From the IMG/VR virus record IMGVR_UViG_3300029309_000030, positions 1 to 59,587 of that record: a stretch of 59,587 bases of DNA. One strand, written 5' to 3'. The position numbers and the translations under genes were made by a program. Below are positions 29,324 to 49,912 of this stretch, in pieces. How positions within the stretch are numbered: the stretch's first letter is position 1; each line of letters starts with the position of its first letter. The notes beneath the pieces were generated by a model. That model ran no database searches. It was not told the DNA's origin and saw only the letters and a list, made by a program, of their open reading frames with translations. The DNA is from a virus.

Positions 29324-31072
29324 CTAAGCCCCTCTTGGGTTTCTAGCATCTAATATATTTTGACTAGCCTGTTGAACCCCAGTGGGTTGGGGGCCTCTTT
29401 GTTGAACGCTTGACATCGGGGCACCAGCGCCCATACTGGTTCTATTTTGAGGACTTGCTGGGCCTCTATTTCTAAGTCCCATACCTTCTCCACCGGGCTG
29501 AGACATACCCATTTGCGCTTGTCTAGCCATTTGAGCAGCGCCTTGAGGACTAATATTACGGCTTGGAAGCGCACCCGGAGTACCCATGCCGCCACCCATT
29601 TGCATGCCGCCCATAGGCATACCCTGTGGAGGTGGCTGTTGAGCAGGGTCAACTGGGTCAGGTTGCTTATAGATAAAGCGAATATCACGATTTGCATCTT
29701 CGGATAGTGTAGGCTTGTAACCCATCATCATCATTCTTTGTGCAATATTGACTTCCATCTCATCACGGCGTAGTCGAGTAACTTCATCTTCTTCTTCGTT
29801 TGGATACAATGTTAGTTTCCAATCTGTGACATCCAGTTCTTCCATTAGTCTTGGGAACAAGTGGTCGGTGTATACTTTGTGACCAAACTCTACTGCTCTA
29901 TTAGTGACTAATATCTGCATACCTTCGTTGTTTAGTCCACCGGATTTACCAGTGTCCATCATAAATACATTAGATACGCCATAGAAAGCAGCGATTCTTT
30001 GTCGCATCTCGTCTCTTGCAGGTATATATTGCATCTCTTCAAGACTGTCCATTAGTTTGACCCAGTTAATACCGCCTCTACCACTACCAGATTCAATACC
30101 AATCTTAGGTATATAATGCGGGTCACGCTCTAACTTTTCGTCGGTAGCCTTGAAAAACGACTTCATAGACTCAAGATTATCAGTGGTAACGCTCAATATA
30201 CCTCTTGGTATTCTACGCTTTGAATAAGCAGTGTACATGTAATTATCCATCGCTGTCAAAGTCATGGCTTGTCGCCAAAGAGTAGACACTGGGCTTCTAC
30301 CGTATAGTTTGGAAGGTTGATATTTACTAACATGTATTACCTCGCCTTGCAAATAATATTGGGTTTTACCGCTTCCAGCAGTATTGACATGGTGTACATC
30401 AAGCATTTCTGTGCCACATGTAGGACAACTCTTGTTGTCTTCTGAGTACGACTTAACTTCATTACGATGAATAGGGCAAACTCTGAATCGACCTCCTCTT
30501 ACACCACGCTTGTCAGCAATAATACGCATAAAGATAGGGTCACCTCTAACAATTTCTTTGATTCTGTAAAACGCTAACTCGTTTGTTTCTGGGTCCATAT
30601 AATATTCTTTGATAAGAATCAAGAATGCATCGTCTGTAATATTCAAATCGTATTCTACTTCCCTAAGTACATCCATAAAGGTCTGCTCCATAGAGTTTCT
30701 TTGCTCGATTAACCAACGAGGATATACTAATTGGTCAGGGTTAGGTTCTGCTAAGTTTGTATCGCCGCATTCTCTGCATTCGTCGACATCGTGCTGGAAC
30801 TCAGCATCACAAGAAGTACATTTCTTTTGGAATTTCTTTTCCCAGTAGTAACCACGACGAAATATTTCTTGTTGAAGTGTAGAAAGAACGGTTCTAAGAA
30901 TAAGGTTTTCATTAGCAACTGCGTACAATGCAGGTATAGTGATACCCTGTACTAACACAGGCTCTTGTATACCTGTAGTCCAAAGCGGCATCTGTGGCTC
31001 TGGTGTCCTTCTTCTTCGGAACGGATTGCCGATTGATTCTATGAGTTTACCTATTCTGCCCTTTTCTGCCAT
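29324..31072 (-). CDS. Portal protein with two zinc-ribbon insertions
   Basis: ATG 31072 is preferred: it follows GGAGG and overlaps the upstream stop as TAATG. The 582-residue protein has portal features: IPALYAVANENLILRTVLSTLQQEIFRRG, DVLREVEYDLNITDDAFLILI, YGRSPVSTLWRQAMTLTAMDNYMYTAY in part, and MRQRIAAFYGVSNVFM with GLNNEGMQ. It forms the dodecameric DNA-entry ring. Unusually it carries two metal-binding knuckle pairs, Cys85/88/99/102 and Cys199-His202-Cys216/219. The C-terminal 110 residues are Met/Gln/Pro/Gly-rich and probably disordered. Confidence 0.85.
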   Translation of the reverse strand: MAEKGRIGKLIESIGNPFRRRRTPEPQMPLWTTGIQEPVLVQGITIPALYAVANENLILRTVLSTLQQEIFRRGYYWEKKFQKKCTSCDAEFQHDVDECRECGDTNLAEPNPDQLVYPRWLIEQRNSMEQTFMDVLREVEYDLNITDDAFLILIKEYYMDPETNELAFYRIKEIVRGDPIFMRIIADKRGVRGGRFRVCPIHRNEVKSYSEDNKSCPTCGTEMLDVHHVNTAGSGKTQYYLQGEVIHVSKYQPSKLYGRSPVSTLWRQAMTLTAMDNYMYTAYSKRRIPRGILSVTTDNLESMKSFFKATDEKLERDPHYIPKIGIESGSGRGGINWVKLMDSLEEMQYIPARDEMRQRIAAFYGVSNVFMMDTGKSGGLNNEGMQILVTNRAVEFGHKVYTDHLFPRLMEELDVTDWKLTLYPNEEEDEVTRLRRDEMEVNIAQRMMMMGYKPTLSEDANRDIRFIYKQPDPVDPAQQPPPQGMPMGGMQMGGGMGTPGALPSRNISPQGAAQMARQAQMGMSQPGGEGMGLRNRGPASPQNRTSMGAGAPMSSVQQRGPQPTGVQQASQNILDARNPRGA

Positions 31073-32379
31073 TAAAATTCCTCCAGCCAATTAACTACTG
31101 TATCACGGTCTACATCCCACTTCATTAGTAACTTGTCGCCCTTGGCAGTACCTTCCGCATTAGTATACTGTAGAAACTTCTTGACTTTACCCTTTGTGTC
31201 TTTGTTATCAGAGTTGACATAAGTTATCATAGCCTTAGCCAAGTCTCCCTTTATTCTCAAGTTAGGATAGATATTTTGTAAAAACTGAGCAACATCTTCT
31301 GATTTCAAAAATGTAACTCGGTGTTGAGATTGCTCGGAGTCTTGGTATACCTTTTGGTCAAGTTGTAAAGTTCCAAATCCTATACCTTTGTACAACTGTT
31401 CACAATGCATCCTACCCGCTTTACCTTTGGTAACCAAACCAACCTTGGGCTCACCACGGTCTGATATGTTTACATAACCGTTAGAATCAAAGAAACCAGC
31501 AGCATAAGACCAAGGGTCTTTGATAACAAGACCGTCTCGGTCTATACACATATATTCGCCTTTACGGTGAGCCTTGACTATGTTTATTTCTTCGCCATAC
31601 ATATTAAGAAGTTTAGACAGTCTGTTAGAATTCAGTCTTGGTACGCCCTTTTCTATGAGATTTTCAGTAATCGCTCTAGCAGACATTGAGCCGTGATTAC
31701 TTACTTCTTCTTTAGCGAGCCTCATCCATTTCTGCTGCTCTTTGGAAAGGTTGTCGATTTGATGTAGCGAACTCTTCCACATCTTACGAGCGTCTTGTTT
31801 AGTTTCCATAGCGTTAACCCAAGCCATTTTTTCTTCTTCGCCCCAAACATCTTCAAACTCGTCTAACTTAGCAAGTGCATCTTCTGCGCTTTCCCATAAA
31901 TTACAAGCACGAAGTAGACTAGATTGTCTGGATTTGCCAAATAATCTAAGCGAGCGTAGGTCTTTGTCGGCTAATCCCATTTTTCTCATAGTATCGTAAT
32001 GAGGTTTACCCCAAGATATCATGGCTAGAGTTGCATCTACTTCTGCACTTTTGAGGGCCCTAACATTGGATATGATATTGTCAATCTCGTCCTTACTGTC
32101 CTTCATGACTCTTCTTGCTTTTCGCAAATCTTTGATGATTTCGTTAGCACTTTTACCAATTCTATCTTCAAACCAACCGTCACCAGTAGGTGCAAAAGGC
32201 GCGTACTGCGGCTCAGGTAACCTTTCTTCTTCAAACATTACAGTCTGAGAAGCAATCGACTTGGCCACTGTTTCGTCTACTCTCGGATGTGCCATGAGAT
32301 TGATTGCTATATCGTTAAGAATACTGTGACCCATGTCTATGGCATGATTAGTGTTTGTTACATTTAGACTCGGCCACAT
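31072..32379 (-). CDS. Packaging-region protein with catalytically altered LAGLIDADG domain
   Basis: ATG 32379 is chosen because GGAG lies about 7 nt upstream. The 435-residue product has a helical N-terminal 220 residues, a winged-helix-like part (SARAITENLIEKGVPRLNSNRLSKLL, about 233-258) and a C-terminal LAGLIDADG-type domain: AAGFFDSNGYVNI at 293-305 and NIYPNLRIKGDLAKAMITYV further on. In active homing endonucleases the acidic residue before the final Gly binds metal; here it is Asn300. The gene lies between TerL and portal, overlapping the portal start. A DNA-recognition role in packaging is inferred; a degenerate homing endonuclease is the alternative. Confidence 0.7.
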   Translation of the reverse strand: MWPSLNVTNTNHAIDMGHSILNDIAINLMAHPRVDETVAKSIASQTVMFEEERLPEPQYAPFAPTGDGWFEDRIGKSANEIIKDLRKARRVMKDSKDEIDNIISNVRALKSAEVDATLAMISWGKPHYDTMRKMGLADKDLRSLRLFGKSRQSSLLRACNLWESAEDALAKLDEFEDVWGEEEKMAWVNAMETKQDARKMWKSSLHQIDNLSKEQQKWMRLAKEEVSNHGSMSARAITENLIEKGVPRLNSNRLSKLLNMYGEEINIVKAHRKGEYMCIDRDGLVIKDPWSYAAGFFDSNGYVNISDRGEPKVGLVTKGKAGRMHCEQLYKGIGFGTLQLDQKVYQDSEQSQHRVTFLKSEDVAQFLQNIYPNLRIKGDLAKAMITYVNSDNKDTKGKVKKFLQYTNAEGTAKGDKLLMKWDVDRDTVVNWLEEF

Positions 32380-32408
32380 AATACTCTCCAACTTTTGGTG
32401 TCATTTAA

Positions 32409-38202: not shown

Positions 38203-38904
38203 TCACAATAAATCCATTATGTCTTCATCTATTTTACCGTCTGCTTGTGCAAGTAAACCGGCTTTGACTCGCTTCCAAGTTTCGGGGCTCTCCTTACCTA
38301 ACTCCACTTTAAGCACATTGATAGTATTGTTGGCAATATTCTGTGTTGGCTCTGCCCATTTTTCTTGGTAAGTCGTTAAATCTTTGAGAGTTTCTCTTAC
38401 CTCTTTATGCAACCTAACCATATCAGATATGACACCGTCATCATGTATGCTTGTTTCTTCCATAAACTGTGCAAGTTTACCGTTTAAGCCTTGTACATTG
38501 TTTCGCAATATATTAACTTCCTCTCCTACTTTTATAGATACAAGAGCGGTAGAACTTTTCTTTACCAAGGGTTGGAAATGGTGCTTCATATGTCGATAAA
38601 CTGCTTCTTCACTACACTCTAATTGTTGAGCAATTTCTTCTGTGGTGATATTACCTTCAAAGTAATCTACTTCTAATATTCTTCTGTTATCGTCAGTGCA
38701 TACTTTACACGAATGATTTGCACCCTCGTGGTATTCACCTACATGATTTTTCATGTGTCGTTCTGCGGTATTGGCTCTCCAACCCATATCTTTGTCCAAA
38801 ACTTGAGGGTTAGCAATGCCGTCAATGATGTTCTGCTCTAACATTTCACGGTCACCGTGTTGACAAAAAGGACATGACCGTTTAGTCTGACGCTGACCCG
38901 CCAT
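38203..38904 (-). CDS. Tandem zinc-HTH protein, candidate small terminase
   Basis: The product has 233 residues. Two repeats have identical spacing: Cys11/14 with His50/54, and Cys66/69 with His105/109, that is C-x2-C-x35-H-x3-H. Between the cysteines and histidines are helix-turn-helix segments (ITTEEIAQQLECSEEAVYRHMKHH is the clearer one). The C-terminal half is coiled coil (VNILRNNVQGLNGKLAQFMEET; DMVRLHKEVRETLKDL). DNA-binding HTH plus oligomerising coiled coil, upstream of TerL, fits a small terminase. A transcription regulator is an alternative. Confidence 0.65.
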   Translation of the reverse strand: MAGQRQTKRSCPFCQHGDREMLEQNIIDGIANPQVLDKDMGWRANTAERHMKNHVGEYHEGANHSCKVCTDDNRRILEVDYFEGNITTEEIAQQLECSEEAVYRHMKHHFQPLVKKSSTALVSIKVGEEVNILRNNVQGLNGKLAQFMEETSIHDDGVISDMVRLHKEVRETLKDLTTYQEKWAEPTQNIANNTINVLKVELGKESPETWKRVKAGLLAQADGKIDEDIMDLL

Positions 38905-49084: not shown

Positions 49085-49912
49085 CTAAGATAAAAGAACA
49101 TTGGTTAAAGAACGAGCGATTCGAGCAGCATCAGCGAGGTCTTCTTCCTGTAAACCACAGTCAAAACCCCATGCGTTTAGATGGCGTACCAAGGTCTGAG
49201 TGCTTAGGTTAGCCCCACTACCCTCGGCAAACGGACAGCCGCCAAGTCCGTTAATACTACTGTCAAACTGCTTGATGCCATTGAACAAACCGCTTCTTAC
49301 CAAAGCAAGCGCTCGCTGCTCATCTCCTTTGTGATGTAAATGTAAGCCCGGCACTAGTCCTTCGTCAAGTGCCATCTCAGCCCAAAGTGCAACTTCTTGT
49401 TCACTTGCTACGCCGACAGTATCGGCAAACACTACAGTGTTGCCAAACATCTTAGCATCTCTCAGACAAGAAAACATGGTCTGTGGCTTGATAACTCCAC
49501 TGTAAGGGCTACCGAAAGCCATGCTGATGTAAACTCTGACATTTTCTTTGGGCACTTTGTCCATGAAAGTTTTGTACATCAAAACTATTTCTTGCCGTGT
49601 CTTACCCATATTGTTAATGTTAAAAGTCTCACAGGGGCTAAAAACTATGTTAATTTTTTCTACACCAGTTTTGACAGCCCGGTCATAGCCCCGCTTATTC
49701 ATTACCAACCCGGCACCAAAGCCAGTGAACACTTTTTCCGCATCAGCCATTTGAGGTAAACGCTTAGGATGTGCAAAACTAACTTCTTCGATGTTTTCTA
49801 TACCTGCTCTATAAAGTGCGTTAATGAGATTCTTTTTGTCGTCTGTGTCGATGATGTGCTCAAGGTATTGTAAACCGTCACGAGGACCGACCTCATAGAC
49901 GGTTACTTTCAT
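49085..49912 (-). CDS. HMG-CoA lyase-like DRE-TIM metallolyase
   Basis: The 275-residue TIM-barrel enzyme starts at ATG 49912, overlapping the upstream stop by 4 nt. Hallmarks of hydroxymethylglutaryl-CoA lyase are present: VGPRDGLQ (Arg11, Asp12), His191 and His193 in GLHLHH, the signature GLGGCPFA with Cys226, and Asn235 as a further likely metal ligand. In that family these cleave HMG-CoA to acetoacetate and acetyl-CoA. The complete catalytic set suggests an active enzyme, either on HMG-CoA or a related 3-hydroxy-acyl substrate. As an auxiliary metabolic gene in a virus it could redirect host leucine breakdown or isoprenoid precursor supply; the true substrate cannot be read from sequence. 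Confidence 0.85.
   Translation of the reverse strand: MKVTVYEVGPRDGLQYLEHIIDTDDKKNLINALYRAGIENIEEVSFAHPKRLPQMADAEKVFTGFGAGLVMNKRGYDRAVKTGVEKINIVFSPCETFNINNMGKTRQEIVLMYKTFMDKVPKENVRVYISMAFGSPYSGVIKPQTMFSCLRDAKMFGNTVVFADTVGVASEQEVALWAEMALDEGLVPGLHLHHKGDEQRALALVRSGLFNGIKQFDSSINGLGGCPFAEGSGANLSTQTLVRHLNAWGFDCGLQEEDLADAARIARSLTNVLLS

Follow-up and report, generated by a model that had tools for sequence, protein, structure and literature searches.

A LAGLIDADG-domain protein encoded beside the portal gene of magrovirus-like archaeal viruses, with apparent loss of the metal-binding aspartate in two lineages

The LAGLIDADG DNA-cutting fold is known mainly from selfish genes. In I-CreI, Asp20, Gln47 and Lys98 are active-site residues, and the change of Asp20 to Asn abolishes cleavage. 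Among LAGLIDADG enzymes as a whole, conservation extends only to the second Asp (PMC6950143). Regarding packaging, the HNH protein gp74 of phage HK97 stimulates cos cleavage by the large terminase, TerL (PMC9410871), and a survey of phage homing genes describes genes of this kind as able to serve in packaging while also being homing-like elements (PMC10448857). Here we describe a LAGLIDADG gene in a stretch of viral DNA of 59,587 bases, called the window below, which corresponds to positions 1 to 59,587 of the virus record IMGVR_UViG_3300029309_000030. The gene lies downstream of TerL and upstream of the portal gene, and its features are collected in Table 1.

Table 1. Coordinates of the features discussed, in positions of the window
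Feature	Coordinates	Strand	Basis or remark
Portal protein, two zinc-ribbon-like Cys clusters	29324..31072	-	PHROG 18178, 9.6e-68
TAATG, stop TAA overlapping the portal ATG at 31072	31070..31074	-	sequence
435-aa protein with helices at its N-terminus, then a winged helix and, at the C-terminus, a LAGLIDADG domain	31072..32379	-	ORF, conserved M-W N-terminus, model
LAGLIDADG domain, residues 286-435	31075..31524	-	alignment, model, structure comparison, domain profile
Codon AAA, Lys318, aligned with I-CreI Gln47	31426..31428	-	Thr in 126 and Lys in 0 of 130 Asp-type proteins
Motif AAGFFDSNG, residues 293-301	31477..31503	-	sequence
Codon AAC for Asn300, the counterpart of I-CreI Asp20	31480..31482	-	Asp in 130/142 homologues
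Predicted winged helix, residues 213-280	31540..31743	-	structure comparison, best Z 8.8 (modest); DUF5609 under its cut-off
Predicted helical region, about residues 60-205	31765..32202	-	model; known relative not found
Large terminase (TerL) with intact ATPase and nuclease residues	32409..33890	-	PHROG 38, 5.5e-64
233-aa HTH protein, candidate small terminase	38203..38904	-	weak match to a PHROG TerS (E 0.0028), alongside further HTH families; conserved in relatives

The gene, its protein and its fixed place

From gene content and kinship, on which the group name is based, we infer a magrovirus-like tailed virus of archaea as the source of the window; abundant ocean archaea are thought to be the hosts of these viruses. 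Of the 14 records searched, a gene of the Cpn60/thermosome family is present in 13 and one for a family B polymerase (PolB) in 12; the window fragment has neither, and the polymerase is missing from one further record. This content agrees with the description of Magrovirales, in which chaperonin and family B polymerase genes stand beside a Caudoviricetes module (PMC10768690). The nearest isolates by portal are the Druskaviridae haloviruses (identity about 28-30%), which the same ICTV profile also names as relatives of Magrovirales. The window also carries an HMGL-like lyase gene at 49085-49912, and such a gene is noted for magroviruses by ICTV (PMC10768690).

The reading frame of the LAGLIDADG gene is undamaged. 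Counted from the first TTG it spans 31072-32391 on the minus strand (439 aa), and the near-invariance of M1 and W2 in an alignment of 61 relatives indicates that the true start is the ATG at 32379, which gives 435 aa and leaves the numbering of Asn300 correct. The portal Cys clusters (window 29324-31072) resemble zinc ribbons, with Cys invariant in 14 aligned relatives. For the N-terminal region of the 435-aa protein the searches gave no match to a known family; the matches listed in a structure comparison spanned only the winged helix (residues 207-283, Z about 7-9), and the helical region was barely covered.

The C-terminal domain almost certainly has the LAGLIDADG fold. An AlphaFold2 model built with 61 aligned relatives (mean pLDDT 87.5) has one LAGLIDADG motif per chain and the element order alpha-beta-beta-alpha-beta-beta-alpha of LAGLIDADG homing endonucleases. 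Superposition of its residues 285-423 gives Z 13.7 with I-CvuI (rmsd 2.5, 118 residues), 13.6 with I-MsoI and about 12-13 with I-CreI, and the I-CreI D20N/DNA entry 1t9i is matched with Z 12.1 and rmsd 2.2 over 114 residues. A profile of the domain alone matches I-CreI variants at 1.6e-11 for the whole sequence, which is a two-copy design, the best single stretch reaching 1.9e-4. The Pfam LAGLIDADG_3 match is under its cut-off (E 0.12), and the best PHROG is PHROG 5046, labelled 'HNH endonuclease' (1e-5). The domain profile also matches designed 'Pizza' propellers via one short repeat, which we take as spurious. A chance motif is ruled out by the whole-domain fold match together with the profile matches. 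BFVD yielded one match, the 533-aa protein A0A516LD89, with 423 columns aligned (2e-16). Three members used as queries had no relative among 50,697 phage records, and none was found in GTDB contigs. An earlier note on this DNA had described a LAGLIDADG domain with Asn at the catalytic position, belonging to a larger protein with a winged-helix-like segment, coded between terminase and portal in an undamaged frame that overlaps the portal start codon. All of this is borne out by the flanking PHROG matches, the intact ORF and its TAATG, the predicted winged helix at residues 213-280, the superposition and domain profile, and the codon at 31480-31482.

Because loci anchored on the LAGLIDADG gene contain it by construction, searches were also anchored on the portal, and these loci were used for presence counts. 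The gene is directly upstream of the portal in all 80 loci examined (best 80 of 356 portal relatives), at a distance within 60 nt in 79 of them and of about 297 nt in L319. With another portal query, headed by a more distantly related member, the result was again 80/80 (best 80 of 392), the two sets of 80 overlapping. Wherever TerL was found in a locus it is upstream of the gene (117/117), adjoining or up to about 3 kb off; in a sister clade, L074-L100 and similar loci have up to about 3 kb extra between the two. All 14 records have a single copy. The scattered presence and several sites that mark LAGLIDADG homing endonucleases as mobile were not found. Judged from these sequences, the gene is not mobile and is vertically kept as a single copy, and in all probability it is a fixed member of the packaging block.

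The metal-binding aspartate and selection on the domain

The 414 loci used, many of which share contigs, gave 142 distinct proteins. Position 300, where the LAGLIDADG motif has its metal-ligand acidic residue, is Asp in 130 of these, Asn in 7, His in 2, Ser in 2 and Cys in 1. The acidic residue is thus present in most relatives and absent in the window. The Asn proteins are those of the window, to which L015 is identical, and of L001-L006, and they come from separate contigs; the five His, Ser and Cys proteins form another clade, apart from that of the window. A portal tree (quick method, 123 rows) places each Asp-less group on one branch and has two losses of Asp; a tree of the residues N-terminal to the domain (142 rows) also has two, with a long-branch warning for L101 and for the L091 group. 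As Asn is nested among Asp-type viruses in these trees, Asn300 is read as a derived loss; on this evidence the loss of Asp is derived in the window's clade and, independently, in one more clade.

Two further positions vary together with position 300. Gln380 is lost in all 12 Asp-less proteins, to Leu in the window's clade, and retained in 129 of the 130 Asp-type proteins. Position 318 is Lys in 11/12 Asp-less proteins and in 0/130 Asp-type ones; since only two independent losses exist, this is not a significant correlation (sign test, p = 1). The exception within the window's clade, L006, has Asn300 and Leu380 but retains Thr318, which suggests that Thr318 changed to Lys later than the other two positions. 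Lys377, aligned with I-CreI Lys98, is found in 142/142, so that the Lys98 equivalent of LAGLIDADG enzymes is present throughout. A third lineage (L442 and L444) has, directly before the portal, a partly degenerate domain with the last Asp retained, the motif ADFLESDGF, a low domain score and an altered C-terminus. Separately, the Ser300 protein of L101 (G010, 62991-63371, minus strand) has an in-frame TGA inside its LAGLIDADG match, which could be a frameshift, decay or sequencing error; L101 may therefore be decaying.

Compared with the N-terminal region, the domain of Asp-type proteins is the better conserved part, with a median domain/N-terminal distance ratio of 0.65 over 6,055 non-independent pairs. 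The reverse holds in the Asn clade (ratio 1.51, 6 pairs) and in the His/Ser/Cys clade (1.15, 7 pairs). For the domain, dN/dS lies at about 0.02-0.12 within the Asn clade, and at 0-0.08 in the computable ones among 21 Asp-type pairs. The domain of the Asp-less lineages is relaxed yet clearly kept, under purifying selection; the faster evolution in both lineages would also fit slow decay. A damaged pseudogene is ruled out by the intact frame and the dN/dS of about 0.02-0.12.

These results bear unequally on the view, put forward in the earlier note, of a recruited, cleavage-dead domain. That the domain was recruited and kept agrees with its presence in both portal-anchored sets and with the purifying selection on it. 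The cleavage-dead part fits the window's clade, where all seven proteins have Asn, but not the family, in which 130/142 keep Asp. Of the two features that would have counted against that view, an intact acidic residue in homologues is the common state, whereas a free-standing, mobile distribution was not found.

Proposed role and rival explanations

Our main reading, to which we give a probability of about 0.55, is that of a domesticated LAGLIDADG packaging-module protein, ancestrally a nuclease, which was disarmed to a DNA-binding part in the window's clade. The core protein of magrovirus-like viruses would combine the helical region, the winged helix and the LAGLIDADG domain and be encoded immediately before the portal. 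Its ancestral form would have nicked or cut viral DNA for TerL, in the way the HNH protein gp74 aids cos cleavage by TerL in HK97. The window's clade would have exchanged Asp300 for Asn and Gln380 for Leu and then, judging by L006, Thr318 for Lys; metal-dependent cleavage would have been lost and the domain retained for DNA binding, assisting terminase and portal in engaging viral DNA, with Lys318 perhaps replacing the metal. The parts of this reading differ in strength. Going by its residues, the protein of the window's clade very likely no longer cleaves DNA, and the Asp-less protein probably now only grips it. From its gene position, its co-inheritance and its fold the protein would be an accessory of packaging, and position and co-inheritance make it rather likely that it takes part in packaging. 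That it reads a defined packaging site is a more tentative idea. Bolder still, and in our estimate unlikely, is the full scenario in which a LAGLIDADG meganuclease was domesticated by magroviruses to make the cut that initiates packaging, and two lineages independently disarmed it, through replacement of the metal-binding Asp and a Lys in the position of Gln47, into a metal-free DNA clamp, a natural counterpart of engineered I-CreI D20N.

The ATPase and nuclease residues of TerL, which we take to be those of the standard TerL motifs, are intact in all 112 TerL proteins. TerL could thus cut alone, and losing a second nuclease need not be fatal. The same count rules out a lost and replaced TerL nuclease, and a substitute HNH in Asp-less viruses is ruled out by the absence of HNH (PF01844) from all 14 records. 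Regarding genome ends, direct overlaps occur in three of nine long records (G001, G002 and G004), with longest exact stretches of 83-127 bp, and neither in the other six nor in the window. They are compatible with terminal redundancy or circular permutation, and because they are few and the ends lie at different places of the genome, no cos or pac site could be named from the record ends.

Several other explanations deserve weighing. A homing endonuclease gene could be parked beside the portal and inherited passively, with the window copy degenerating: the fold of the domain is that of a homing endonuclease, evolution is faster where Asp was lost, HVTV-1 has an HNH gene at exactly this slot and HCTV-1 has none, and homing endonucleases often adjoin terminase genes, with 35% of T5orf172 neighbourhoods given in PMC10448857. 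We consider it improbable all the same, because the gene is never missing from the portal-anchored loci (80/80 and 80/80) and is single-copy in 14/14 records, because the domain is fused to a conserved helical and winged-helix region, and because whole Asp-less genes persist in seven distinct proteins of the window's clade with dN/dS far under 1. Alternatively, the 435-aa protein could itself be the small terminase, its winged helix and LAGLIDADG domain recognising pac/cos DNA and its helical region binding TerL. Adjacency to TerL, two DNA-binding folds and universal conservation would fit such a role. This too seems improbable, since a separate conserved HTH protein with the weak TerS match is encoded several genes upstream of TerL, profiles show no similarity between the 435-aa protein and the HTH protein that Druskaviridae encode upstream of TerL, and the ICTV profile lists a TerS on its magrovirus map (PMC10768690). 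No similarity of the 435-aa protein to known TerS was found in PHROGs, PDB or by profile; the HTH protein at 38203-38904 has none to that of HCTV-1. As the ICTV map lists both TerS and an endonuclease (PMC10768690), the 435-aa gene may already carry one of these labels there.

Two explanations remain. WhiA shows that a dead LAGLIDADG domain with an HTH can regulate (PMC3781837), and the protein might be a WhiA-like regulator of transcription or replication that lies in the structural operon by chance; the Asp kept by 130/142 relatives, unlike WhiA, and the tight linkage to the portal make this very improbable. Just as improbable is a protein of the window's clade that still acts as a nuclease via Asn300 or other ligands. 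Lys377 and Asp298 are retained and purifying selection is strong, but the change is the same as in the I-CreI D20N protein crystallised with DNA (1t9i), and the loss of Gln380 goes jointly with the gain of Lys318.

Comparison with known systems

In the literature on magroviruses, LAGLIDADG packaging genes and domesticated homing endonucleases that we covered, most subscription journals lying outside this coverage, no published description of this protein was recognised. The single-motif homing endonucleases I-CreI, I-MsoI and I-CvuI share with it the fold (Z about 12-13.7), the motif helix and the Lys at the Lys98 position; here, however, the domain follows a helical region and a winged helix in one fused chain, is fixed beside the portal, has Asn at the Asp20 equivalent and is not mobile. 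WhiA (DUF199) likewise joins an HTH to a LAGLIDADG domain stripped of metal and catalytic residues, but it is a cellular transcription factor, described as degenerate as a family, with the order LAGLIDADG then HTH (PMC3781837). A LAGLIDADG motif has also been claimed in a terminase protein, HCMV pUL56 (PMC6950143); this is a short sequence pattern in a different protein, whereas here a whole domain is predicted.

The closest parallels in position involve HNH genes. HVTV-1 (Druskaviridae), among the closest isolated relatives by portal, has the HNH gene gp111 in the same slot between TerL and portal; its nuclease fold is HNH, and in HCTV-1 the gene is absent and the slot empty. In HVTV-1, TerL is bracketed by two HNH genes, gp109 and gp111 (L364), for which HCTV-1 has no annotation at this place; the pattern is homing-like. 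The gp74 type of HK97 resembles the present case as a homing-type nuclease within the terminase block. A gene in the terminase/portal block is found here as well, and an HNH domain is not: the domain is LAGLIDADG, encoded between TerL and portal in archaeal viruses and apparently inactivated in two lineages. Where a homing-type nuclease lies next to a terminase, the usual description is of an HNH or GIY-YIG gene whose benefit is unclear; in the present case it is a LAGLIDADG protein that belongs to the packaging block, fixed in place and single-copy across a whole group of archaeal viruses. With its natural Asp-type and Asp-less versions at one locus, one can ask how the task divides between cutting and DNA recognition, and whether such nucleases are servants or parasites of the viruses that carry them.
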